A stretch of 29,900 nt of DNA from a virus. The notes below the pieces were generated by a model. The model searched no databases and had not been told where the DNA came from. It saw only the letters and a list, made by a program, of their open reading frames with translations. Location: positions 1-29,900 of IMG/VR virus record IMGVR_UViG_3300041809_000248, one strand, 5' to 3'. Made by a program: the position numbers and the translations under genes. Positions 1 through 29,900 of the stretch are shown piece after piece. Numbering within the stretch: the stretch's first letter is position 1; each line of letters starts with the position of its first letter.

Positions 1-2
1 TC

Positions 3-1910
3 CTCGACGTACAGCCGGCGGATCTGGAAATTATCGAGCGCGTCGAAGGCGCGGCGCAATTCCGCGAGCAAGTCGGCGGTTTCCTCGCGGACCTCGGCCA
101 CGAACCGGCAACTCTCACCGCGGCTCGCCCCCTCGGCCCTCACGCGGTCGAATTGCCAGTGATTCAACTCAACGCGCGCAATCTGCGCGACATGATCGCC
201 GACGCCTGGGCGGCGTATTTCCTGCTCTCGTGCAGAATTCCCGAAGCCGCGCACCTGTACCAGCGAAACGGCGAACTCGTGCGCCTCGTGACGAACCCCG
301 ACAATGGCGCGCCGTTCGTCAAAGCGGTCGGCGAGGCCGAACTGTTCAACCTCATGGGAACGTGGGCGACGTGGGCGAAAATCACCGACACCGCAATCAT
401 CAATGGTTTTCCCCCTGTTTCGGTTGCCAAGGCCATGCTCGCCATCCCGCACCCCGACCTGCTGCGCGTCGAGGAAATTGTGACGGTCCCATTTTTCGAC
501 GAAAACCTCGACCTCGTTGCCGCGCCAGGACATCACGCGGCCTCGCGCGTGTTTTTGCACGGCGACGACGGCGCCCTGCCGGAAATTCTGGAAGTCCCGA
601 CTGCGGATGACGTCGCCGCGGCCGTTTCGCTGCTGGTCGATGACCTCTTTATCGACTTCCCTTTCGTGTCCCAGGCCGACCGTTGCCATGCGGTCGCCAC
701 GTTCCTGTTGCCCTTTGTGCGGCGCGCCATCGACGGCCCGACCCCGATTCACTTGCTCGAAGCGCCCGCGCCCGGTTCGGGCAAGTCGCTGCTCGCCGAC
801 CTCGTGCAGCTTGTTTTCTCCGGCATCGCCTCGGCGACCACGACCGGCCGCGACGAAGAAGAAACCCGCAAGAAAATCACGTCGCTGCTCGAACGCGGCG
901 AGCGCATCATCGTCATCGACAACGTGCGCGCCGGCATCGACTCGGCGCAAATCGCGTCGGCCCTGACTTCGACCGTGTGGACCGATCGCGCCCTTGGCTC
1001 GAATCGCATGATCGCGGCCCCAAACCGCGCCGTGTGGATTTTCACCGGCAACAATCCCGACCTCAGCCTTGAACTCGCGCGGCGGTCAATCCGAATCCGC
1101 ATCGACGCGGAAACTGACCGCCCGTTCGAGCGCGTGGGATTCAAACACGACCCGATCAGAGAATGGGCTACAGAAAATCGGCGCGCTTTGATCTCGGCCG
1201 CGCTGACTCTCGTGCAGAATTGGAAGGCGTGTGGTTGCGTACCTGAAACCAAGAAGCGCCTCGGCTCGTTTGAGGCGTGGTCGGCCCTCGTCGGCGGCAT
1301 CCTCGCCGCGGGCGGCGTCCCTGGCTTTCTCGAAAATCAGAGCGACCTCTACGACACAAGCGACTCCAAAACGGCCGACTGGAAAGCCTTTGTCGAACTA
1401 TGGGGCGAAAAACTTGGCGCGGCGACATATTCTTCGGTTGATTTGGTAGATTTTGCCGTCGAGAATGACATGCTCGCTGAGTTATTAGGCGACGATTCGC
1501 GCCGCGTTCAATCAATTCGCATGGGTAAACAGCTTCGGCGGGTCCGTGACACCACTATCCGCAAATGGAAGATCGTTTCGCGCCGGGACCATCACGCAAA
1601 AGCGCAACTCTGGAAACTAGAGCCTGTTCACCTTCAAATCCTGCCGCCGCTTGCGGGTAGTGCGGGGAGTGGCGGAAAAGTCGAAACGGCACTACCCGCC
1701 GATCAACTACTTGAAAATAAAGCGTTTGCGGATAGTGCGGGTAGTGATTCTCTTATACTCACACACGAGAAAAAAACTGATGCTTTGTTAAATGCCATAG
1801 ACGAGCCGCGGGGAGCACTACCCGCAACTCCCCGCACTATCCGCAGCCAAAAATTCGACGAAAACAGCGCCGATCAACAAATGAAAATCGACCTCGCAAA
1901 ACTCGATTAG
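3..1910 (+). CDS. Phage helicase/primase-type ATPase (5' end outside window)
   Basis: Probably the ATPase/helicase part of a replicative primase-helicase. Counting from the TTG at 153, a Walker A motif (APGSGKS) lies near residues 206-212, a Walker B strand (RIIVID) at 251-256, a sensor-1-like segment (WIFTGNNP) at 295-302 and an arginine-finger-like ARRSIRIR at 309-316. This order fits P-loop helicases attached to phage primases. The frame stays open from 153 back to base 3 without a stop (reading LDVQPADLEIIERVEG...), so 153 is probably internal and an N-terminal, perhaps primase, part lies to the left. The last ~100 residues are low complexity and contain the 9-bp repeats listed separately. 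The TAG at 1908-1910 is followed by the ribosome binding site of the next gene. Function is inferred from motifs only; a plain AAA+ DNA-replication ATPase is the alternative. Confidence 0.75.
   Translation, partial: LDVQPADLEIIERVEGAAQFREQVGGFLADLGHEPATLTAARPLGPHAVELPVIQLNARNLRDMIADAWAAYFLLSCRIPEAAHLYQRNGELVRLVTNPDNGAPFVKAVGEAELFNLMGTWATWAKITDTAIINGFPPVSVAKAMLAIPHPDLLRVEEIVTVPFFDENLDLVAAPGHHAASRVFLHGDDGALPEILEVPTADDVAAAVSLLVDDLFIDFPFVSQADRCHAVATFLLPFVRRAIDGPTPIHLLEAPAPGSGKSLLADLVQLVFSGIASATTTGRDEEETRKKITSLLERGERIIVIDNVRAGIDSAQIASALTSTVWTDRALGSNRMIAAPNRAVWIFTGNNPDLSLELARRSIRIRIDAETDRPFERVGFKHDPIREWATENRRALISAALTLVQNWKACGCVPETKKRLGSFEAWSALVGGILAAGGVPGFLENQSDLYDTSDSKTADWKAFVELWGEKLGAATYSSVDLVDFAVENDMLAELLGDDSRRVQSIRMGKQLRRVRDTTIRKWKIVSRRDHHAKAQLWKLEPVHLQILPPLAGSAGSGGKVETALPADQLLENKAFADSAGSDSLILTHEKKTDALLNAIDEPRGALPATPRTIRSQKFDENSADQQMKIDLAKLD
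1653..1844. repeat. Cluster of eight 9-bp iteron-like repeats (candidate replication origin)
   Basis: The word GCGGRKAGT occurs at 1653-1661, 1662-1670, 1728-1736 and 1737-1745 on the + strand and in reverse complement at 1691-1699, 1817-1825, 1827-1835 and 1836-1844. Tandem pairs are head-to-tail and the outer clusters face each other. The DNA between them (about 1700-1727 and 1746-1805) is clearly AT-richer than the surroundings. Direct copies encode A-G/D-S, while inverted copies in the same frame encode LPA or TPRTIR, so the DNA word rather than a peptide is repeated. Phage lambda carries its origin iterons inside gene O, which supports an origin reading, but binding is not shown. Confidence 0.6.
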
Positions 1911-1929
1911 TTATTAGAAGGAGCACGAA

Positions 1930-2055
1930 ATGACCAGAAATCCGCATACGCCGTCAAAGCCTTTCAACCCCTGGCCCTGGCCTGTCTGCATCGCCTGTTA
2001 CCTCGCCGGCGCGGCATCAATCCTCGGCTTTTTGTTCTGGCTGGCGAAACCATGA
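1930..2055 (+). CDS. Small single-span membrane protein, 41 aa
   Basis: A short gene with a strong Shine-Dalgarno sequence (AAGGAG, 1918-1923) six bases before its ATG. The product begins with a Pro/Asn/Trp-rich segment (NPWPWP) followed by about 20 hydrophobic residues (VCIACYLAGAASILGFLFWL) and a short LAKP tail, consistent with one transmembrane helix. Its TGA overlaps the ATG of the next gene as ATGA, which argues that it is translated. No family is recognised; small membrane proteins in such places can be inhibitors of host functions or lysis accessories, but nothing here decides that. Confidence 0.65.
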   Translation: MTRNPHTPSKPFNPWPWPVCIACYLAGAASILGFLFWLAKP

Positions 2056-2696
2056 CGCAGCCGGCCGTCGAACCGTTTTTCAACGCCTCGCAATTTCTTT
2101 ATGTTTCGACCTCGCTCGATCACATCTTGCTCGACGACGACAGCACCCAGGACCATGTTGACCCCACGACCAAAAAAATCTACCGCCGCCTCGACCCCGC
2201 TTTCTACTCGTGGATTCGCGCCAGTATGGAAAAACTGAAAACCAAAAAAGACCGCCTCGACCCGGCTTGGATCGACCTCAAGGCGCGGTTCGCCATCCTG
2301 CACACCTGGGCCGTCGATCACTACGGAATGCAAGCCCTCGTCGATCAGGTCAACAAGAACAACACGGCGCAATACTCGCCGCCGCGCCCCAAAATGCCGG
2401 ACGACCTCACTGACGACGCCGTTGCCGGCTTGTGTGCCCTGCTCTCGTCTCACCCTGACGGCGTTTGCGAGATCGAAGTGAAGTGCAGCGCCGGCCGCTT
2501 CACGCTCGTCGTGGCGTACTCTGAACCCAAACGCACAGACCGCCTCGAAATTTCCCTGCACGACTTCTCGTACATGGTCGAAATCAAACGCCTGTTCCCC
2601 GCGGCGCACTTCGACCTCTTTGACCAGCAGAAAGCAGCAACAGCCACGGCCGCGAAATCAGCACAACGTCGCTTTCGCTCGACGAGGAAACCATGA
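2052..2696 (+). CDS. Hypothetical protein, 214 aa
   Basis: Function not recognised. The start overlaps the 41-aa gene and the stop overlaps the next gene (ATGA at both ends), so the three are co-translated. The protein is soluble, rich in Asp/Lys, with a helical N-terminal half (residues ~50-110, including YSWIRASMEKLKTKKDRLDPAW) and a C-terminal half with alternating beta-like segments (EIEVKCSAGRFTLVVAYS). It ends in an Ala/Arg-rich basic tail. Its position after the replication ATPase suggests an early or DNA-metabolism accessory role, which is inference only. Confidence 0.75.
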   Translation: MTQPAVEPFFNASQFLYVSTSLDHILLDDDSTQDHVDPTTKKIYRRLDPAFYSWIRASMEKLKTKKDRLDPAWIDLKARFAILHTWAVDHYGMQALVDQVNKNNTAQYSPPRPKMPDDLTDDAVAGLCALLSSHPDGVCEIEVKCSAGRFTLVVAYSEPKRTDRLEISLHDFSYMVEIKRLFPAAHFDLFDQQKAATATAAKSAQRRFRSTRKP

Positions 2697-3139
2697 TTCA
2701 CCGCAAGCAAACGCCTGTTTCCCTGCTCATCACCGGATATTTGATTTACCATCGCCACGGTATGCGGCCCTGCATCACAGACAAGGCGCTCGACGTGCTG
2801 ATGACCGGGATTGTCGCACGAGGCGGTTACAACGTCGGTGAAAAACAAGCAGACATAAAAGCGTTCTGGTCCGCGGTCGGCCTCGCTTTCTGGCGCGCGG
2901 ATAAAGAGCGAAGCATCCTCATTCACTACGCCGCCTATTGCATCGGCGGACGGCAAATAAAATACGTTCGCAAGCAGCTTCACCTTCGTCATCGCGCCGC
3001 CTGGGACTGGATTGATCGCATCGAGTGGAAAATTCAGGGCGAACTCGACCGGCTCGGCATCGAAACCGCGAAAAATGAACATTTTGCCCCGAACCTCTTG
3101 CATGACCTCGCCGGCGCGCCAGCTTCGGCACTCGACTAA
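2693..3139 (+). CDS. Hypothetical protein, 148 aa
   Basis: Function not recognised. The ATG overlaps the preceding stop as ATGA and a GAGGA lies just upstream (about 2681-2690). The product is basic and partly helical, with several His, Tyr and Trp residues (residues ~60-110, e.g. WRADKERSILIHYAAYCIGG), and has no signal peptide or clear membrane helix. It is the last gene before the 172-bp control region, so it probably ends the upstream operon. Codon use matches its neighbours. Confidence 0.75.
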   Translation: MIHRKQTPVSLLITGYLIYHRHGMRPCITDKALDVLMTGIVARGGYNVGEKQADIKAFWSAVGLAFWRADKERSILIHYAAYCIGGRQIKYVRKQLHLRHRAAWDWIDRIEWKIQGELDRLGIETAKNEHFAPNLLHDLAGAPASALD

Positions 3140-3146
3140 CCATGCC

Positions 3147-3170
3147 AAAACGCAAGCGTTTTTATTTATT
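3147..3170 (+). terminator. Weak terminator-like hairpin after the upstream operon
   Basis: AAAACGC (3147-3153) and GCGTTTT (3156-3162) are complementary, and the right arm runs into a T-rich stretch (TTTTTATTTATT). The stem is short and A/T-weighted and the loop is at most four bases if the innermost pair is open, so efficiency is doubtful. Its place just after the stop at 3139 fits an operon end. Confidence 0.35.
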
Positions 3171-3186
3171 TTACGGATTTCCGTAA
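3171..3186. promoter_or_regulatory. 16-bp palindrome, possible operator
   Basis: TTACGGA and TCCGTAA form 7-bp perfect inverted arms separated by TT. The centre lies about 14 bp upstream of the predicted -35 hexamer at 3193. This is a common position for an activator or a regulator-binding site. No regulator gene is visible in the window. Confidence 0.4.
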
Positions 3187-3192
3187 TTTCGC

Positions 3193-3222
3193 TTGACTTC
3201 GGAACTTTGTTTTCCCTAGAAT
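3193..3222 (+). promoter_or_regulatory. Predicted sigma70-type promoter for the late genes
   Basis: A -35 element TTGACT (3193-3198) and a -10 element TAGAAT (3217-3222) are separated by 18 bp, each matching five of six consensus bases. The site lies in the only long gap of the window and in locally AT-rich DNA. Transcription would start near 3229 and run toward the terminase genes, meeting a hairpin terminator at 3271-3290 first. Confidence 0.6.
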
Positions 3223-3270
3223 CCTTACGCTACCGATCAGTACGGGAACCAAGAAAACGCCAGTTGTTGC

Positions 3271-3298
3271 AGCCGGGAATCTTCCCGGCTTTTTCTTT
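3271..3298 (+). terminator. Intrinsic terminator in the late leader
   Basis: AGCCGGGAA (3271-3279) pairs with TTCCCGGCT (3282-3290), followed by TTTTCTTT. The inner loop is very small unless the closing A-T pair opens. It lies about 40 nt past the predicted transcription start and 14 bases before the next ATG, so it would end most transcripts as a ~65-70-nt RNA unless read through. Confidence 0.7.
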
Positions 3299-3311
3299 AT
3301 GGAGCGCATTC

Positions 3312-3518
3312 ATGGCGAACCTTGCGGGCCAACAGACGAAAAAACGCGCCTCGTGCATGAACTCGACCGACCGTTCCATTATTTTGTTCGTTCGCTCGCT
3401 CATCAGATCGCATTTCCCGGCCCGCGATGACCCGTCGCAAAAACGTTTCCTCGACATGATCGCGGAAATTGAAAATACCATCATCGCCAAAATCCGCACC
3501 GCGGAATCGAAAGGCTGA
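3312..3518 (+). CDS. Hypothetical protein, 68 aa
   Basis: Function not recognised. The ATG at 3312 is chosen because GGAG (3301-3304) stands seven bases upstream; the frame is open back to 3012, but that part overlaps the upstream gene, the promoter and the terminator. The product is basic, with a helical C-terminal half (DDPSQKRFLDMIAEIENTIIAKI) and codon use like its neighbours. It is the first gene after the control region and lies directly ahead of a membrane protein and the terminase genes. A 43-codon frame starting at 3299 competes but has poorer codon use. Confidence 0.65.
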   Translation: MANLAGQQTKKRASCMNSTDRSIILFVRSLIRSHFPARDDPSQKRFLDMIAEIENTIIAKIRTAESKG

Positions 3519-3523
3519 CCACA

Positions 3524-3931
3524 ATGAACCCTGCAATCCAAGCCATCGCCGGAAAATTGCTTTCTCGTAAACTGCTCGGCATGAGCGGCGGCATCGGCGG
3601 CCTCGTCGCCATTGCCCTAGCTGTCGGCGCGGGCACGATTGCCCTGCCTGTCGGCCTCGCTTTTGGCGGGATTGTCGCGGCCCTTACCGCAACGCAGATC
3701 ATCACGCAGTACAAAATCGACATGGCGCAGATCGTCGCGGACGCGAAAGCAAAAGGCATCCCGATCGTGCCGCCTACCATCGGCCAAATCATCAAAGAAA
3801 TTACGGCCCCCACGGTTGAAATTCCTGCGCCGGCGCATAGCGCGCCCTCTGACGCTGCGGCTGGCGCGGGAATCCCTGCCGCGCCGAAAAAAGTTGACCC
3901 CTACAACCCTGGCCCTGACAACGAAGGCTAA
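3524..3931 (+). CDS. Two-span membrane protein, holin candidate
   Basis: 135 aa. Residues ~22-43 and ~44-62 are two closely spaced hydrophobic, Gly/Ala-rich segments separated only by a Pro/Gly turn (IALPVGLAFGG). The soluble tail (residues 65-135) is rich in Pro and Ala and ends PYNPGPDNEG. The short loop, small size and polar tail resemble phage holins, but no specific holin family is recognised. The only candidate lysis hydrolase is 7 kb away (11191), which weakens the call. Another membrane-linked virion or superinfection protein is possible. Confidence 0.6.
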   Translation: MNPAIQAIAGKLLSRKLLGMSGGIGGLVAIALAVGAGTIALPVGLAFGGIVAALTATQIITQYKIDMAQIVADAKAKGIPIVPPTIGQIIKEITAPTVEIPAPAHSAPSDAAAGAGIPAAPKKVDPYNPGPDNEG

Positions 3932-3946
3932 AATCGAATTTCCAAA

Positions 3947-4459
3947 ATGACCGAAAAAAAATCCCGCAAGCCTCTGAAAGCCACGGCTGAGGAAACAAAA
4001 AAAAAAGAGCGCGGCACGACGGGCGCGACCTCGCCAGCTTGGAAACCGCTGGATTACGCGAAGATCGAACAGGCGGGTTATGAGGGGCTTTCGGTGCCTT
4101 ACGGCGTGGCGCGGCGGTTGCAAGTCGATTACGACACGGCGCGGCGGCATTTTGACGCCGACCCTTTGTGTTGGGAATCGTATCAGGCGGGACAGGCGCT
4201 TTTTCAGGACCGGCTAGAGCAGTTAGGGCGCGGCAACGCGGTCGGCGACAAGGCCATGCCGGCGCTGAAACCCGGTCAAGCGACGATGTTGATTTTCGCG
4301 CTCAAGTGCAAGGTGAATTGGACCGAGATACAGCGCGTCGAGCACACGGTTGACGTGACTGCAAAGGCGCGGGAACTCGCGGATAAATTCGGCATCAGCA
4401 TCGACGAGGCGGAACGGCGGCTTGCCGACAAGCTGGCAACGGTGAAGGTGAAAAAATAA
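3947..4459 (+). CDS. terS: Terminase small subunit
   Basis: Probably the DNA-recognition subunit of the packaging motor. The 170-aa protein has a Lys-rich start, then a helix-turn-helix-like region (residues ~35-65: YAKIEQAGYEGLSVPYGVA, then a helix with ARRLQVDYDTARRHF). A segment PGQATMLIFALKCKVNWTE (~108-126) strongly resembles the conserved C-terminal part of many phage small terminases. A helical tail follows (KARELADKFGISIDEAERRLADKL), which could contact the large subunit. It sits immediately before the large terminase gene, the usual order. No sequence run was possible, so the family name is by resemblance. Confidence 0.75.
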   Translation: MTEKKSRKPLKATAEETKKKERGTTGATSPAWKPLDYAKIEQAGYEGLSVPYGVARRLQVDYDTARRHFDADPLCWESYQAGQALFQDRLEQLGRGNAVGDKAMPALKPGQATMLIFALKCKVNWTEIQRVEHTVDVTAKARELADKFGISIDEAERRLADKLATVKVKK

Positions 4460-4482
4460 CGCGCGGAAGGGCGGCGGACGCA

Positions 4483-6009
4483 TTGACCAGCATTGACTAC
4501 AAGAAGCTGGCGCAGACCGCCAAACGGCACGCGAAAATGTTGCCCCCTGTCAACGCTGGCGGGCCTACGGCGCTTGACCTCGCCGCGGCGCAAGTCGCCC
4601 TAGAAATTGAGCTTGAACGCGACCGGGCCGCTGGCGTCGGCGTCGAAAGCTGGCGCAACGGCATCGCGTCGTTTGCGCAACATCTGAGCCGCGGCGCGTG
4701 GCAACCCTATCGGCATTGTGTTCATGCCGCGACGGTCATCGAGCGCGAGCTTGCCAAGGGCGCGGCGCGCGTCATCGTGAACATGCCGCCGCGATACGGC
4801 AAGAGCCAACTGTTCTCTTACTGGTTGCCGGCGTGGCTGCTGGATCGCAACCCTGACACGCGCGTTTTGGCGTGCAGCTATTCGGCCGACCTCGCGGTTG
4901 ATTGGGCGTGGAAGGTTCGGAATCTCGCTGAGGAATGCGCCGAGTTGAATTTCGCGGTCGCGCACGGCAAGGGCGACAAAGCATATTGGGGAACGGCCGA
5001 CCGTTCGGGCAAGACGCGGACGGGCGGCATCAAAGCGGCCGGCGTCAACGGTTCAATAACAGGCTTCGGCGGCAACGTTCTCATCCTCGACGACCCGGTA
5101 AAGAATTGGGCCGAAGCGCACAGCCCTGCTTTCGACGGCGCTTTCGACGGCTGGTGGGGTTCGACGTTTTTCTCGCGGCTCGAACCGGGCGGCTCAATCG
5201 TGATCGTGATGACGCGATGGACAGACCACGACCCGACCGCGAAGCTAATCAAGTCCATGCCTGGGAAATGGACGGTAATACGGCTTCCTGAACTTGCCGA
5301 GGACCACGACCCGTTAGGGCGCGCAATCGGCGAGGCGCTTTGTCCTGAACGTTACCCGTTGACCGAAGTGCTCGAAAAGAAAGAGACGGTTGGCCCCTAC
5401 GTTTGGGCTGGTATGCACCAGCAGCGCCCTGCGCCGATTGGCGGCAACATCGTCAAGCGGGACCAATTTCAATACTACACGGAACAGCCGGCGCTCTCGC
5501 AGTTTGAAAAGACCTCGCAGTATTGGGATTTCAACGTCAAAGAGACCGTCCGCGGTTCCTACGTTTGCGGCCAAGTATGGGGCCGACGCGGCGCGGAATA
5601 CTGGCTGCTCGACCAAGTACGCGGCCGATGGGGTTATCCAGAAGCACGCGAGGCGGTGCGCTCGCTGTCGTCGAAGTGGCCCGCCGTGATTCAAAAGATG
5701 GTCGAGGCGAAGGCGAACGGCCCTGCGGTCATGGCCGACTTGCAATCGACGATTGACGGCTTCATGCCCTTCGAGCCTTACGGCGACAAGGTGCAGCGGT
5801 TCATCGGCGTGTCGCCGCTGATTACGGCGCACAACGTTTTCATTCCTGACCCGACCATCGCCCGATGGGTTCACGACTACGTTGACGAGACAACGACGTT
5901 CCCGAACTCGACCAACAACGACCAAGTGGACACTACGAGCATGGCCTTGGCCGATCTCCGCGACTTCAATTTCAAAATCCTCATCGGCAGACCGGATCGA
6001 GATAACTGA
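4483..6009 (+). CDS. terL: Terminase large subunit (packaging ATPase/nuclease)
   Basis: Motor that drives DNA into the prohead and cuts it. The ATPase domain shows Walker A MPPRYGKSQ (residues 101-109) and Walker B VLILDDP (199-205), with a TRW coupling-like motif (244-246). The C-terminal nuclease domain shows the three expected acidic patches: YWDFN (D349), MVEAKANG (E408) and NNDQVDTT (D480/D483). At 508 aa it is full length. The start is TTG at 4483, with a GGAAGGG some 11 bases upstream; an ATG at codon 19 (4537) is an alternative. Portal follows three bases after the stop, standard gene order. Confidence 0.95.
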   Translation: MTSIDYKKLAQTAKRHAKMLPPVNAGGPTALDLAAAQVALEIELERDRAAGVGVESWRNGIASFAQHLSRGAWQPYRHCVHAATVIERELAKGAARVIVNMPPRYGKSQLFSYWLPAWLLDRNPDTRVLACSYSADLAVDWAWKVRNLAEECAELNFAVAHGKGDKAYWGTADRSGKTRTGGIKAAGVNGSITGFGGNVLILDDPVKNWAEAHSPAFDGAFDGWWGSTFFSRLEPGGSIVIVMTRWTDHDPTAKLIKSMPGKWTVIRLPELAEDHDPLGRAIGEALCPERYPLTEVLEKKETVGPYVWAGMHQQRPAPIGGNIVKRDQFQYYTEQPALSQFEKTSQYWDFNVKETVRGSYVCGQVWGRRGAEYWLLDQVRGRWGYPEAREAVRSLSSKWPAVIQKMVEAKANGPAVMADLQSTIDGFMPFEPYGDKVQRFIGVSPLITAHNVFIPDPTIARWVHDYVDETTTFPNSTNNDQVDTTSMALADLRDFNFKILIGRPDRDN

Positions 6010-11190: not shown

Positions 11191-11610
11191 ATGCAGGGAA
11201 CATTAGACGTTGCCGCGAAATATCTTGGCGTTGCCGAAGCGCCGGCGGGCGCGGCCCCGAATCCGACCATCCTCAAATTTCAGGCGGTCGTTCACAACCC
11301 GGCCGACGACGAAGTGCCTTGGTGCGCCGCTTTCGCCAACGACGTTTTGAGCGAGGCGGGCATCGAGGGAACGAACAAGCCGAATGCGCGCTCGTTCATG
11401 GATTGGGGCGTCGAAACCGACAATCCCGAACCGGGCGACATTGTGGTTTTCTGGCGCGGCGACCCGAACGGCTGGCAGGGCCACGTTGCGTTTTTCGTGG
11501 AATTTCTCGAAGGCGCGCTGGTCCGCGTACTCGGCGGCAACCAGCACGACAGCGTTTGCTATGCGAATTTCCCGACCGCGCGTGTTTTGGGTTATCGGCG
11601 CGCGGCGTGA
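11191..11610 (+). CDS. NlpC/P60-CHAP-like peptidoglycan hydrolase (probable endolysin)
   Basis: Likely cleaves peptide links or the sugar-peptide amide of cell-wall peptidoglycan. The 139-aa protein is a single cysteine-peptidase-like domain, resembling the TIGR02594 family: catalytic Cys in VPWCAAF (C45), the SFMDWG and PEPGDIVVFWRG segments, His in WQGHVAFF (H98) and a polar third residue in GGNQHDSV (N117). It has no signal peptide or binding domain, so it would need a holin to reach the wall or be a virion-associated enzyme. The ATG follows AAAGGGACGGGG. Finding it between capsid and connector genes is unusual for a lysis gene. Confidence 0.8.
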   Translation: MQGTLDVAAKYLGVAEAPAGAAPNPTILKFQAVVHNPADDEVPWCAAFANDVLSEAGIEGTNKPNARSFMDWGVETDNPEPGDIVVFWRGDPNGWQGHVAFFVEFLEGALVRVLGGNQHDSVCYANFPTARVLGYRRAA

Positions 11611-25434: not shown

Positions 25435-27393
25435 ATGACCGTTCGCCCGAACGAAACGCCGGCGTTTGCCAGCGGCCCGAATGCCTCGATCACGGAACCC
25501 TCGGCCGGCGAAAAATTGCTCGGATGGGTCGGCGGCGCGGGAAGCCAGCCGCCGCCAGCGGGATTTTTCAACTGGCTGCATAAGACCACGAACGATTGGG
25601 TCAATTATTTTGACACCTATCACGCGGGCGTGCAGCGCCGGGGCGTCTGGTCGGGCCTTCGCTTAACAAGTCTCGGCGGCGGCTCATTCTCGTTGACCGC
25701 GGGAACGATCATCACAGACGAGGGGCGGCGTGTCGATGTGGCCGCGATCCCGTCGCTCATCGAGATCACGCCCCCTAGCGGCTTCTCGGCCAGCGCCGGC
25801 TATCGCATCGACGCGATCATTGCGACGTACAACCCGGCCGCTTGCACGCTGGTGTTTTCTTACGTCCAGGGGTTCAACGGCTCGCCGGTCGTCGATCGGT
25901 ACATTATCGCCCTGCTCGCCGTGAAATTCAGCACGGCCAACCCGCCGACGTACAACCTCGCGGCGAAGATGTACTCCCCGCGCATGGGCGAACTCGGCAA
26001 CGTCCTTTTCCTTAATAGTGGCCGCGGCACGCGCGCCACGATGGGCGGCGACAACTCCCAGGCCGACATGACCATCCAGAACGCGATTGACGCGCTCAAC
26101 GCGGCCGGGGGCGGCACGTTGTATCTGGCGGGCGATTTTGGCGAATTTCAGGGCGCGAACGCCGGAATTGTTTTGAAAAGCGGCGTCAAAATCGTCGGCC
26201 TTGGCGAAACGATGTTGCACGCGAAAGCGGGCGGCGAAACGATGTGGCTCTTGCGCATGGAAGGCATGACAACCGCGCAGGGCGTGATTTCGGGCGGTAA
26301 TGCAATTCAGGTTGCACAGATCGCGCCGCCGTTTTCCTGGCAGGATTACGGCCTCGGCGCCGTCGTCAACATCGCCGGTACGCATTACACGGTCTATTCG
26401 ATTTCCGGCGACGGCCATACCGCGCTGGTGAAGGATCAAAACGGCGACATTCCGACATTGGCCGACGCGACCGGGGTTTCGTTTGAAATTCTGATCGTCG
26501 GCGCGGGCGTCGAAAACGTTGTCGTCGTGCCGAAAAACATCTTTGTCCCGCCGGTCGGCGTCGTCGGCGCCCTGCCAAGCTGCGCCGTTCATTTTGCATA
26601 CACCTACCAGTGCGCCGCGAATCGCGTGTTTCTGCGCAAAGGGCCGGCAACAGCGGTCGCCGGGTTCCTGCTCACCGGGAACAATTACAAGATGCAGATT
26701 GAAGATTGCGATGCGCCGGCCGGTTACAGCTATTCCCTGTCCGTCGATGCGGCGGCGGGCGTCAATTACGCCAGTATCCAAAACAACCGATGGGGTTCAA
26801 ACGTGTCGCTGACGCCGGCGACGTGCATCGGGTCGCAATACCTCGGCAACGCGCTCATCGGCGGCGCGACGGAAACATTCAGCGCCGCGGCGCAAGCGGG
26901 TTTCGGCTGGCAAGGCAGCGTCGAAACGAACCAACACAACACGGACGGCTCGCACCGCGTCGTCGGCCTTTGGTGTGCGGCCGACGCGACGGGGCAACCG
27001 GGCCAATGGGGCGGGAGCGACCGCTACGCACCAGGGTACACGACCGCGGCGGTCGTGTACCTCGGCACGGCGCCATTTCCGAGTGCGAATGGCGTCAATT
27101 ATCCAAATTGGTATTTGCGGCACGAATCGACGGGGAATTATGAAATCAGGCCGCCGTACTCGATTGCGGCAAACGGCGCGGTAACGCAACACGTCGCCGG
27201 CGACTTCGCGCTGCCTTCGGTCCAGTTGACGGCCGTGGTCCCGGTCATGCTGGCGTTCTCCTTAATGTGGGAAAACGACACGGCGGGAAATTGGTTTTTC
27301 CTGCTTTCCTTTTTCTTGCCGCCCATTCTCGGGAATCCGTGTATGCGCGTTGACTCCGAATTCTACTTCTCAACCCTGCAACTGAAAGCGTAA
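25435..27393 (+). CDS. Tailspike/receptor-binding protein with beta-helix
   Basis: 652 aa. Residues 1-175 look like a particle-attachment region (PSAGEKLLGWVGG, PPPAGFFNWLHKTTNDWVNYF). Residues ~208-250 (MTIQNAIDALNAAGGGTLYLAGDF, then GIVLKSGVKIVGLGETMLHA) are the entry of a right-handed beta-helix of the pectate-lyase/tailspike type. Beta-rich turns continue to ~500. Such spikes bind, and often cleave, host surface polysaccharide. No catalytic residues can be named. The last ~50 residues are unusually hydrophobic (FSLMWENDTAGNWFFLLSFFLPPIL). Confidence 0.8.
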   Translation: MTVRPNETPAFASGPNASITEPSAGEKLLGWVGGAGSQPPPAGFFNWLHKTTNDWVNYFDTYHAGVQRRGVWSGLRLTSLGGGSFSLTAGTIITDEGRRVDVAAIPSLIEITPPSGFSASAGYRIDAIIATYNPAACTLVFSYVQGFNGSPVVDRYIIALLAVKFSTANPPTYNLAAKMYSPRMGELGNVLFLNSGRGTRATMGGDNSQADMTIQNAIDALNAAGGGTLYLAGDFGEFQGANAGIVLKSGVKIVGLGETMLHAKAGGETMWLLRMEGMTTAQGVISGGNAIQVAQIAPPFSWQDYGLGAVVNIAGTHYTVYSISGDGHTALVKDQNGDIPTLADATGVSFEILIVGAGVENVVVVPKNIFVPPVGVVGALPSCAVHFAYTYQCAANRVFLRKGPATAVAGFLLTGNNYKMQIEDCDAPAGYSYSLSVDAAAGVNYASIQNNRWGSNVSLTPATCIGSQYLGNALIGGATETFSAAAQAGFGWQGSVETNQHNTDGSHRVVGLWCAADATGQPGQWGGSDRYAPGYTTAAVVYLGTAPFPSANGVNYPNWYLRHESTGNYEIRPPYSIAANGAVTQHVAGDFALPSVQLTAVVPVMLAFSLMWENDTAGNWFFLLSFFLPPILGNPCMRVDSEFYFSTLQLKA

Positions 27394-27397
27394 CGCC

Positions 27398-28480
27398 ATG
27401 TTGAGACCTTTGGAAAAATCCCCCTGGGGCCGCAGACGGGCCGCGCCGGCGCCGGCGCCGCGCGCCGCGCGTGAAAAGCCGGTTCTCGTGCATGTGATTC
27501 CCTTCGGCCTCGTCGAGCATGGCGTTCAATCGCTCGTGCAGGACATTTGCCGCTTCGAGGGCGGCAAGTGGGAAATGCACGTCGTTCATCTTGGGCCGTG
27601 CAGAATCAAAATCGAAAATGCGGTCGTTCATTCGGGCGTCGATTACGGCCGCGCGCCGTCGCTGGTCGCGTCCCTCGACCCGGACGCCGTGATCTACCAT
27701 ATCCCGCTGATGAACTACGGGCGCATCAATCCGGCCCTGTGCCCGATTTTCTTCTTCTTTCACATTCCGGCGAACTTGCGCGCCCCCAAGCCGGATTGGT
27801 GCAAGCCCGCGGGGGTCTTTTCCAACTACATGCCGTCGCCGGGAAACCTCGGCCCCGGCTGGAAGCCCGAAGAAATAACGGTCGTGCCGTTGGGCGTCGA
27901 TCTGCACGCCTGCACGCCGGCCTCGAAACGCGAGCGCCTGGTCGCGGGCTACGTCGGCCGGCTGGTCGAGGGCAAAATCCCGATGGCCTGGGTTGACGCG
28001 CTGCTCGCCTGGGGCAACCCCGGCCGGAAATGGCAGTTTGAATTTTACGGCGACGAAACCGGCGCGCACGCCGACGAAGTAAAAGCGAAGCTGGCCGGTC
28101 TGAATTGGGTTTCATTCCACGGCATCGTGGCGCGCAACCTGTTGCCGGTCATCTATCGGTCTTTCGATGTGCAGGCGATTCCCTCGAAGTCGGAAGCGGG
28201 CAGCTTGGTCGCCGTCGAGGCGATGGCGTCGGGCGTGCCTGTCCTGGCGCGGCGCATCGACGGCTTGCCGACCACCATCGAGCGCGGCGGCCTGTTTTTC
28301 GACACGGACGCCGAATTTTTCGCGCTGTTGGCGGAAATGGAAAACGCGGACTACCGCGCCGTCGTCGGCGAGGTCGCGCGCGAAATGGCGGAAACGCGCC
28401 CTCTCGCGGTGCAGGCGCAAAAATACAGTGACGCGATTTTCGCGGCCCTGAGCCGAGGCGACGGTTATGCGGGCTATTGA
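27398..28480 (+). CDS. GT4-type glycosyltransferase
   Basis: Retaining GT-B glycosyltransferase. The donor-binding half is clear: GYVGRLVEGK (residues 184-193) and the EX7E motif in KSEAGSLVAVEAMASGVPVLA (E266, E274), with a GLPTTIERGG loop after it. The N-terminal half has VLVHVIPFGLVEHGVQSLVQDI, a GT4 acceptor-domain opening. About 25 Arg/Pro/Ala-rich residues precede it, so a downstream start is possible. Typical members add sugars from UDP- or GDP-donors to polysaccharides or small acceptors. It starts four bases after the tailspike gene and overlaps the acyltransferase gene by 14 bases. Confidence 0.85.
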   Translation: MLRPLEKSPWGRRRAAPAPAPRAAREKPVLVHVIPFGLVEHGVQSLVQDICRFEGGKWEMHVVHLGPCRIKIENAVVHSGVDYGRAPSLVASLDPDAVIYHIPLMNYGRINPALCPIFFFFHIPANLRAPKPDWCKPAGVFSNYMPSPGNLGPGWKPEEITVVPLGVDLHACTPASKRERLVAGYVGRLVEGKIPMAWVDALLAWGNPGRKWQFEFYGDETGAHADEVKAKLAGLNWVSFHGIVARNLLPVIYRSFDVQAIPSKSEAGSLVAVEAMASGVPVLARRIDGLPTTIERGGLFFDTDAEFFALLAEMENADYRAVVGEVAREMAETRPLAVQAQKYSDAIFAALSRGDGYAGY

Positions 28481-29270
28481 GGCGGCGGGGCTGCTGGCGA
28501 AGGCCGGTGTCGCGTCGTCGCTGATTGGCGACCCTGACATGGAATTCGGGGAGTTTCGGCCGTTCTGGCAAGGCGTGGCCGGCTGTGCGGTGTTTCTGTG
28601 GCGCGCGAGCGCGAGCTATCCGGCGATGGACGGGCCGGCGAGCGTGCCGTCGCTGCTGATTACAACGTCGGCGCTGGCGGCGCAATTTGTCGGCAAAATC
28701 CCGGCCATTATCACGGTCGCGGCGCCGCGCGCGGCGTTTGCGGTGGTTCAAACGGCGCTGCTCGGCATCGGGGCGGCGCAGATCAGCCCCCTCGCCGTCG
28801 TCGAGCATTGCCTCGTCGGGCGCGACGTTCAGATTGAGCCGTTCTGCCATGTCGGCGGCGATGGCCTCAGCGCGAACCGAACCGGGAACCGCCAACTGCA
28901 CACGCCCCACGGCGGCATCGTGCGCCTGGGCGACCGTGTGCGGCTTGAATCCATGACGGTAATCGAGCGCGCGGTGATGGGCGAAACCGTCGTCGGCGAT
29001 GATTGCCAATTTGGCAACGGCAACAACGTCGGGCATGGCTCAGTGATCGGCAAGCGTCTCGCGTGCGCCGCCCGCGTCATCATCTGCGGACATTGTGAAA
29101 TCGGCGACGACGTGCGGCTCGGGGCCGGCGTCGTGTTGCGGGAGGGTACGCGCGTCGGCGACCGGGCGTTTGTCGGCATGGGCGCGGTCGTGGTTCGTGA
29201 CGTGCCGGCCGATGTGGTCGTGGCGGGGAATCCGGCGAGGATTTTGAAAGGGTCGGTTGCACCGTGGTAA
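28467..29270 (+). CDS. LpxD-like hexapeptide acyltransferase
   Basis: 267 aa, left-handed beta-helix transferase. Residues ~105-245 are hexapeptide repeats (ISPLAVVEHCLVGRDVQIEPFCHVG, then AVMGETVVGDDCQFGNGNNVGHGSVIGK, then EIGDDVRLGAGVVLREGTRVGDRAFVGMGAVVVRDVP). H190 in NNVGHG is a candidate catalytic base. Residues ~1-100 (SLITTSALAAQFVGKIPAIITVAAPRAAFAVV) look like the nucleotide-sugar-binding N-terminal domain of LpxD, which N-acylates UDP-linked glucosamine. The C-terminal VVAGNPARILKG is common in sugar N-acetyltransferases. Substrate and acyl length are not known. Confidence 0.8.
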   Translation: MRAIEAAGLLAKAGVASSLIGDPDMEFGEFRPFWQGVAGCAVFLWRASASYPAMDGPASVPSLLITTSALAAQFVGKIPAIITVAAPRAAFAVVQTALLGIGAAQISPLAVVEHCLVGRDVQIEPFCHVGGDGLSANRTGNRQLHTPHGGIVRLGDRVRLESMTVIERAVMGETVVGDDCQFGNGNNVGHGSVIGKRLACAARVIICGHCEIGDDVRLGAGVVLREGTRVGDRAFVGMGAVVVRDVPADVVVAGNPARILKGSVAPW

Positions 29271-29866
29271 ATCTTGACGTGGGTTGCTCGCGGCTGCTGG
29301 CGATCGGCGCGCACGCCGACGATGTGGAATATGGCATCGGCGGCTGGTTGCAACGCTTTTCGTCGGCGCGGGTCGTCGTTGTCACCGATGGTCGGCCGGC
29401 GCGCGTGCGCGAGACTGAGGCCGCGGCGCGGATCTTAAACTACCAGCCCGCGATTCTCGACTACGCCGAGAACGACGTGAACCTTTCGCGGCTGGTCGTC
29501 GCCCTCGATGCGATCCTCGCCGGCGAGCGGCCCGACCTGATTGCGGTTCATTGGCCGAACGACACGCACCAGGACCATCGGGCGGCGGCGGCGGCGACCC
29601 TGGCCGCGGCGCGCAACTTCGACGGCGCGATTGTGTTCTACCGCAGCCCGTCGTCGGCCGATTTTGCCCCCAATTTCCTCGTGGCGCTGACCGACGACGA
29701 ATGGCGCGACAAGCTCGCGGCAATCCGCGCGCACGCTTCGCAGATGAGCAAACCGTTTTTGAGCGACAAGGCGCTGCGCGCCGTCGCCCTGTCCTGGCCG
29801 GTCCTGTGGCATCAAGACGCAAAACTGTGCGAACCGTTCGCCCTTCACCGTTTGATCGTGGGGTAA
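29264..29866 (+). CDS. PIG-L/LmbE family N-acetylglucosamine deacetylase
   Basis: Zinc-dependent hydrolase removing N-acetyl from amino sugars, as in MshB and BshB. The fingerprint GAHADDVEYGIGG (residues 15-27) supplies H17 and D20, and NDTHQDHR (99-106) supplies H105 as the third metal ligand; D19 is the probable base. 200 aa is a compact length for the family. The start is GTG at 29264, inside the acyltransferase end (7-base overlap). Together with the two upstream enzymes it forms a single overlapping block. Confidence 0.85.
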   Translation: MVNLDVGCSRLLAIGAHADDVEYGIGGWLQRFSSARVVVVTDGRPARVRETEAAARILNYQPAILDYAENDVNLSRLVVALDAILAGERPDLIAVHWPNDTHQDHRAAAAATLAAARNFDGAIVFYRSPSSADFAPNFLVALTDDEWRDKLAAIRAHASQMSKPFLSDKALRAVALSWPVLWHQDAKLCEPFALHRLIVG

Positions 29867-29869
29867 AAA

Positions 29870-29900
29870 ATGGCGGCAATCGTCGAACAGGACGGTCGCG
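29870..29900 (+). CDS. Start of next gene (cut by window edge)
   Basis: An ATG at 29870, with GGGG (29860-29863) six bases upstream and three bases after the previous stop, opens MAAIVEQDGR and runs out of the window. Too little is present for identification; tight spacing suggests it belongs to the same transcript as the sugar genes. Confidence 0.5.
   Translation, partial: MAAIVEQDGR

Follow-up and report, generated by a model that had tools for sequence, protein, structure and literature searches.

An LpxD-like acyltransferase paired with a PIG-L deacetylase in a phage gene cassette: a candidate glycan-tailoring module

Sugar genes of phages have mostly been read as glycosyltransferases or O-acetyltransferases. 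The stretch of DNA analysed here (the window), an entire linear IMG/VR record of 29,900 nt, carries on its plus strand, at 27,398-29,866, three intact and overlapping genes for a GT4 glycosyltransferase, an LpxD-like left-handed beta-helix acyltransferase (LbH) and a predicted de-N-acetylase of the PIG-L family. What could a phage do with these three enzymes together, and on which molecule? We consider it reasonably probable that the cassette is a module for N-deacetylation and N-acylation of a glycan, whatever the target. Phage glycan tailoring is already known as a kind; the LbH/PIG-L pair within the cassette is real, recurring and apparently co-inherited.

Gene order at the end of the window

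The earlier note had recognised a trio of overlapping genes with EX7E, hexapeptide and HADD/HQDH signatures, and the open reading frames, Pfam matches and motifs confirmed it (Table 1). The GT4 and LbH genes overlap by 14 nt and those of LbH and PIG-L by 7 nt, and the matches to Glyco_trans_1_4 (E 1.6e-14), Hexapep (1.5e-17) and PIG-L (7.5e-15), all over the curated cut-offs, are not chance. Since the sequence stops 34 bp past PIG-L, it shows only one flank of the cassette; up to that end, no flippase or membrane glycosyltransferase was seen in the window.

Table 1. Positions of the cassette genes and of the features flanking them in the window
Feature	Position	Strand	Remarks
Putative tail spike	25435-27393	+	652 aa, directly upstream of cassette
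GT4 glycosyltransferase	27398-28480	+	360 aa, EX7E E266/E274, PF13692
LpxD-like left-handed beta-helix acyltransferase (LbH)	28467-29270	+	267 aa, Hexapep, putative catalytic His190
PIG-L (LmbE-like) de-N-acetylase, predicted	29264-29866	+	200 aa, GTG start, PF02585
Possible start of further gene	29870-29900	+	ATG at 29870; record end cuts ORF

The upstream genes encode a terminase, a tape measure protein, baseplate proteins including baseplate J, a DUF3383 protein and the putative spike. A contractile tail is suggested by baseplate J and the sheath-like DUF3383 protein, and the 29.9 kb are read as a myovirus fragment. The spike is named as such from its position, after the baseplate J and gpI-like genes, and from weak similarity (E 2e-9 in the N-terminal and 3e-5 in the C-terminal part) to the protein in the equivalent position of another phage, G002, which is described below; Pfam and PHROGs returned no match for it. 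As the GT4 gene starts 4 bp behind the spike stop, spike and cassette are probably carried on one transcript. Recent acquisition from a foreign source, considered from base composition, was set aside: GC3 of the cassette (0.79-0.81) is within the range of the tail genes. A shorter, near-identical contig of the same virus (L014, positions 1-5813; protein identity 99-100%) ends within the spike and therefore cannot show presence or absence of the cassette. It should be added that a gene for a CHAP-domain (amidase/peptidase-like) protein is situated at 11,191-11,610 of the window, amid head and neck genes.

The three predicted enzymes

GT4 has, besides its EX7E motif, a C-terminal domain of the GT-B fold, recognised both by PF13692 and by fold match. 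Its nearest solved sequence is MshA, and a predicted model of low confidence (pLDDT 68.6) matched MshA, PimB', PimA and WaaG. The closest relative among all loci searched was the GT4 part of a protein from locus L016, where it is fused to GT2 and methyltransferase domains and has an altered EX7E motif.

For LbH, the proposal of an LpxD-like acyltransferase holds as regards fold and catalytic histidine, and does not extend to identity with LpxD. Alignment to E. coli LpxD with hhalign (probability 99.4, E 5.9e-21; columns 16-264 against 14-308) spans the N-terminal domain and the left-handed beta-helix, and the predicted model (pLDDT 73) had LpxD as its top fold match, at low overall TM-scores (0.28). 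His190 corresponds to the catalytic His239 of LpxD and is invariant in nine aligned LbH proteins; Phe41 of LpxD is kept as F43. On the other side, the score against the LpxD model TIGR01853 (2e-23, 83 bits) is below the equivalog cut-off of 242, and LbH lacks equivalents of the uracil-site Tyr47, of His276 and of the LpxD C-terminal tail. Judged by its sequence, LbH is not LpxD itself, and a UDP-sugar acceptor is doubtful, because the uracil-site Tyr and His276 are lacking. The known reaction of LpxD-like enzymes is N-acylation of the glucosamine amine, and the fold, His190 and the pairing with PIG-L point to LbH as a candidate sugar-amine N-acyltransferase.

PIG-L scored 56 bits against PF02585 (cut-off 28.2). 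Its AHADD motif begins at residue 16 and HQDH at 102, so that the putative zinc ligands and catalytic Asp are present among H17/D19/D20 and H102/D104/H105; H17, D19 and D20 were invariant in 27 aligned rows, and H105 was found in all but one. The earlier note's reading presupposes that catalytic and metal residues are kept in homologs, and LbH His190 together with PIG-L H17, D19 and D20 is indeed conserved in the cassette relatives. The protein distantly resembles diacetylchitobiose deacetylase and BshB. It also matches phrog_11796 (7e-21), listed in PHROGs as of "unknown function", which recognises all three PIG-Ls of this kind (that of the window, L015:6001-6630 and L016:6001-6621).

Recurrence and co-inheritance of the LbH and PIG-L pair

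Relatives of the cassette were found by scanning IMG/VR with a profile built from phage PIG-Ls (A1); profile scans were needed, as single-protein scans of viral_contigs with LbH and GT4 returned no relatives. Two further phages, represented by L015 and by L016/L017, share the gene order of the window, with a like LbH immediately before PIG-L, an overlap between the two genes and a C-terminal Pro-Trp. L016 and L017 differ by one base in 12.6 kb; they were therefore counted as one virus and yield no signal of selection. In this virus the cassette stands behind a spike-like gene, with GT4 upstream and a sulfotransferase downstream. A third locus, L175, has an LbH of the cassette kind at the edge of its contig, which ends there. 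The earlier note had counted recurrence of the whole trio as support, and such recurrence was found for LbH and PIG-L; a GT4 beside the pair is common only to the window and L016/L017, and L015 has GT2-type enzymes. The conserved unit is thus LbH with PIG-L, and the glycosyltransferase varies. Neighbouring genes in the related phages encode GT2, GT9 and GT8 enzymes, methyltransferases and a sulfotransferase, which supports a decorated glycan as the product. In the related phages L015 (622-1641, E 5e-58) and L175 (2565-3578) a DUF6765 gene separates the sugar genes from that of a small one-helix membrane protein. MW202455, a distant relative by its baseplate, lacks a cassette of this kind downstream of the tail genes, and human-gut "phage" matches (L010-L012) were set aside, as their ORFs look like those of bacterial contigs.

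The phages sharing the pair differ in their relationship to the window. The structural module of the 57.7 kb record that contains L016 (G002) matches the window gene by gene at ~21-45% identity, which makes G002 a distant relative of the window phage. In the parts compared, the records of L015 (G001) and L175 (G012) matched none of the structural genes of the window. The L015 phage is temperate, with two integrases, one of which adjoins the sugar cluster, and is unrelated to the window phage. In the LbH tree the window, L015, L175 and L016 formed a clade (support 99/95) outside the housekeeping LpxD clade, and in the PIG-L tree the window, L015 and L016 did so (96/93); the window was closer to L015 than to L016 in both (95/81 and 96/84, correspondingly), in trees that have several long branches and in which the window rows were flagged for deviating composition. 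The two trees agree with each other and conflict with the structural genes, by which the window matches the phage of L016, not that of L015. The simplest reading seems to be that the pair has been exchanged between phages as a unit.

Pairing of this sort extends beyond the cassette. A hexapeptide acyltransferase adjoins PIG-L in 13 of 84 viral PIG-L clusters, upstream in 12 of the 13, and two types of enzyme occur there, LpxD-like and longer; the neighbour enrichment (13/153 versus 12/1131, p 9e-7) is to be read as exploratory, since some of these loci had gone into building the LbH profiles. An LpxD-like gene also lies beside PIG-L in bacterial chromosomes (L282, L283, L287 and L288; a further pair, L284, was not relied on, being a long ORF in a GC-rich contig). 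At L282 the order and overlap are those of the phage cassette, whereas the other three differ in order or strand. The L282 pair is part of a cluster for an amino-sugar polysaccharide, which also encodes a UDP-GlcNAc 2-epimerase, a DegT aminotransferase and a UDP-sugar dehydrogenase. Across ~1,340 bacterial genomes of four phyla, the bacterial loci returned reached at most 172 bits over the full length of the cassette-type LbH, against 261 bits for the held-out phage LbH of L175 on a related profile, a rough comparison as the profiles differ. The PIG-Ls of the bacterial pairs form a clade separate from those of the phage cassettes, so that LpxD-like enzymes and PIG-L seem to have become paired on more than one occasion; this in turn suggests that the two activities belong together.

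Two other arrangements were met among the viral loci. At L003:797-2669 and L004:5925-7153 a PIG-L gene has a WbqC-like gene (PF08889, E at most 1e-44) next to it or close by, possibly another polysaccharide pairing. At L018:5228-7712 a fusion of polysaccharide deacetylase and GNAT acetyltransferase domains adjoins a hexapeptide acyltransferase-PIG-L pair, and is a second deacetylase/acyltransferase combination.

Candidate target and competing readings

The deacetylation followed by re-acylation put forward in the earlier note is the best reading of the cassette, owing to the LpxD-like character of LbH over its full length and to the bacterial pairs, one of them in a polysaccharide cluster; what we infer here is the chemistry itself, including the sequence of steps, the donor and acceptor, the target and the purpose. 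The cassette would tailor a glycan in the cytoplasm by means of soluble enzymes, and its genes are probably expressed together with the late genes of the tail. GT4 would add a HexNAc-type sugar to an acceptor, PIG-L would remove the N-acetyl group of this sugar, and LbH would place a different acyl group, from an acyl-CoA or acyl-ACP donor, on the freed amine, giving a glycan that bears an unusual N-acyl amino sugar. Within the same module LbH could instead act as an O-acyltransferase or restore an acetyl group.

As to the target, few membrane segments are predicted in the cassettes and no flippase match was obtained, so the acceptor is likely cytoplasmic, either a virion protein or a precursor of an envelope glycan. 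We place a precursor of the host envelope glycan ahead of the virion, with confidence and doubt in about equal measure. It would be modified on the cytoplasmic side of the membrane, and the change would alter the receptor that other phages use. A host-surface change is favoured by the sugar cluster of L015, which adjoins an integrase, where genes for lysogenic conversion are usually situated. A PADLOC search with seven proteins gave no match to known anti-phage defence models.

The strongest competitor is the same chemistry with a spike or capsid protein of the phage itself as acceptor, which would change how the particle adsorbs or would conceal it; virion glycosylation has been reported for mycobacteriophages. 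The few membrane segments and the lack of a flippase match speak for such an acceptor too, and the string of spike and cassette, with its 4 bp spacing in the window and its recurrence in G002, fits equally well. It is weakened by the integrase-adjacent cluster of L015 and by the bacterial relatives of the pair, which are chromosomal and in one case part of a polysaccharide cluster. We regard virion modification as a tentative second choice. The fuller proposition, a mobile phage module by which an amino sugar on the phage's own virion would have its N-acyl group exchanged, is unlikely in our estimate; to our knowledge, such an exchange has been described in no virus.

The two enzymes may also serve different sugars, the amine left by PIG-L being the final product and LbH acting as an O- or N-acetyltransferase on another residue of the same glycan. 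The occurrence of both LpxD-like and longer hexapeptide enzymes beside viral PIG-Ls agrees with this, as do the further hexapeptide proteins and methyltransferases of related clusters. The apparently repeated pairing with LpxD-like enzymes, whose known substrate is an amine, argues against it, and we hold it to be rather improbable.

Hypermodification of DNA, in which a hydroxymethylated base would receive a sugar that is then deacetylated and re-acylated, protecting the phage DNA, was suggested by isolated phages. Those with PIG-L matches are mostly Arthrobacter phages, and the best matches come from ones with a TET/JBP-like gene, a glycosyltransferase and a "glucosaminyl deacetylase", a cluster that we take to serve DNA hypermodification. 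In the two Arthrobacter phages examined, Klevey and Altadena (L007:5057-7582 and L013:5296-7585), the TET/JBP-like, glycosyltransferase and PIG-L genes stand in a row. A glycosyltransferase beside a PIG-L of the same broad family is common to these phages and the cassette; the cassette differs in having LbH as well. The TET/JBP search found nothing in 15 virus records (the window and 14 others) and matched the two control phages below the family cut-off, and absence from the window counts for little, as this is a fragment. A well-supported branch (98/97) separates the PIG-Ls of the TET phages from those of the cassettes. This reading is very unlikely.

The synthesis of a small thiol-like molecule, drawn from the parallel with mycothiol and bacillithiol in the earlier note and from enzymes of the MshA/BshA and MshB/BshB kinds, is the least credible: GT4 and PIG-L score far under the MshA/BshA and BshB equivalog cut-offs (MshA 52 versus 462 bits, BshB1 49 versus 182), neither pathway has an LbH, and the related clusters resemble those of glycan synthesis.

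The preferred reading, deacetylation and re-acylation of a glycan, has several counterparts. With LpxC/LpxD of lipid A synthesis the cassette shares N-deacetylation of a GlcNAc derivative followed by N-acylation through an enzyme of the LpxD fold with its catalytic His; there the deacetylase is LpxC and here it would be PIG-L, and the cassette LbH differs from LpxD in its place in the tree and in the missing residues and tail. The same logic of GlcNAc transfer, N-deacetylation and N-acylation underlies Nod factor synthesis by NodC, NodB and NodA, and teicoplanin; NodA, NodB and the teicoplanin acyltransferase belong to other protein families than the cassette enzymes. Phage sugar-enzyme genes with a proposed role in altering the host surface occur, as here, in the host-recognition cluster of pelagimyophages, where glycosyltransferases stand beside tail fibres (PMC7029224), and in the capsular clusters of jumbo cyanophages (PMC7824862); a word search of both texts found no PIG-L/LbH pair. 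In Stenotrophomonas phage DLP3 a PIG-L gene is followed a few genes later by a glycosyltransferase gene annotated as BshA-like (PMC7326821). A search of the open-access literature on phage PIG-L/LmbE and acyltransferases returned no description of the LbH/PIG-L pair.

The cassette suggests a function for phrog_11796 and for the LpxD-like/PIG-L pairs of bacterial chromosomes. If the reading is true, a deacetylase and an acyltransferase that are inherited together and mobile between unrelated phages would amount to a defined and testable change of the amine of a surface sugar, of relevance to receptor masking, superinfection exclusion and phage glycobiology.
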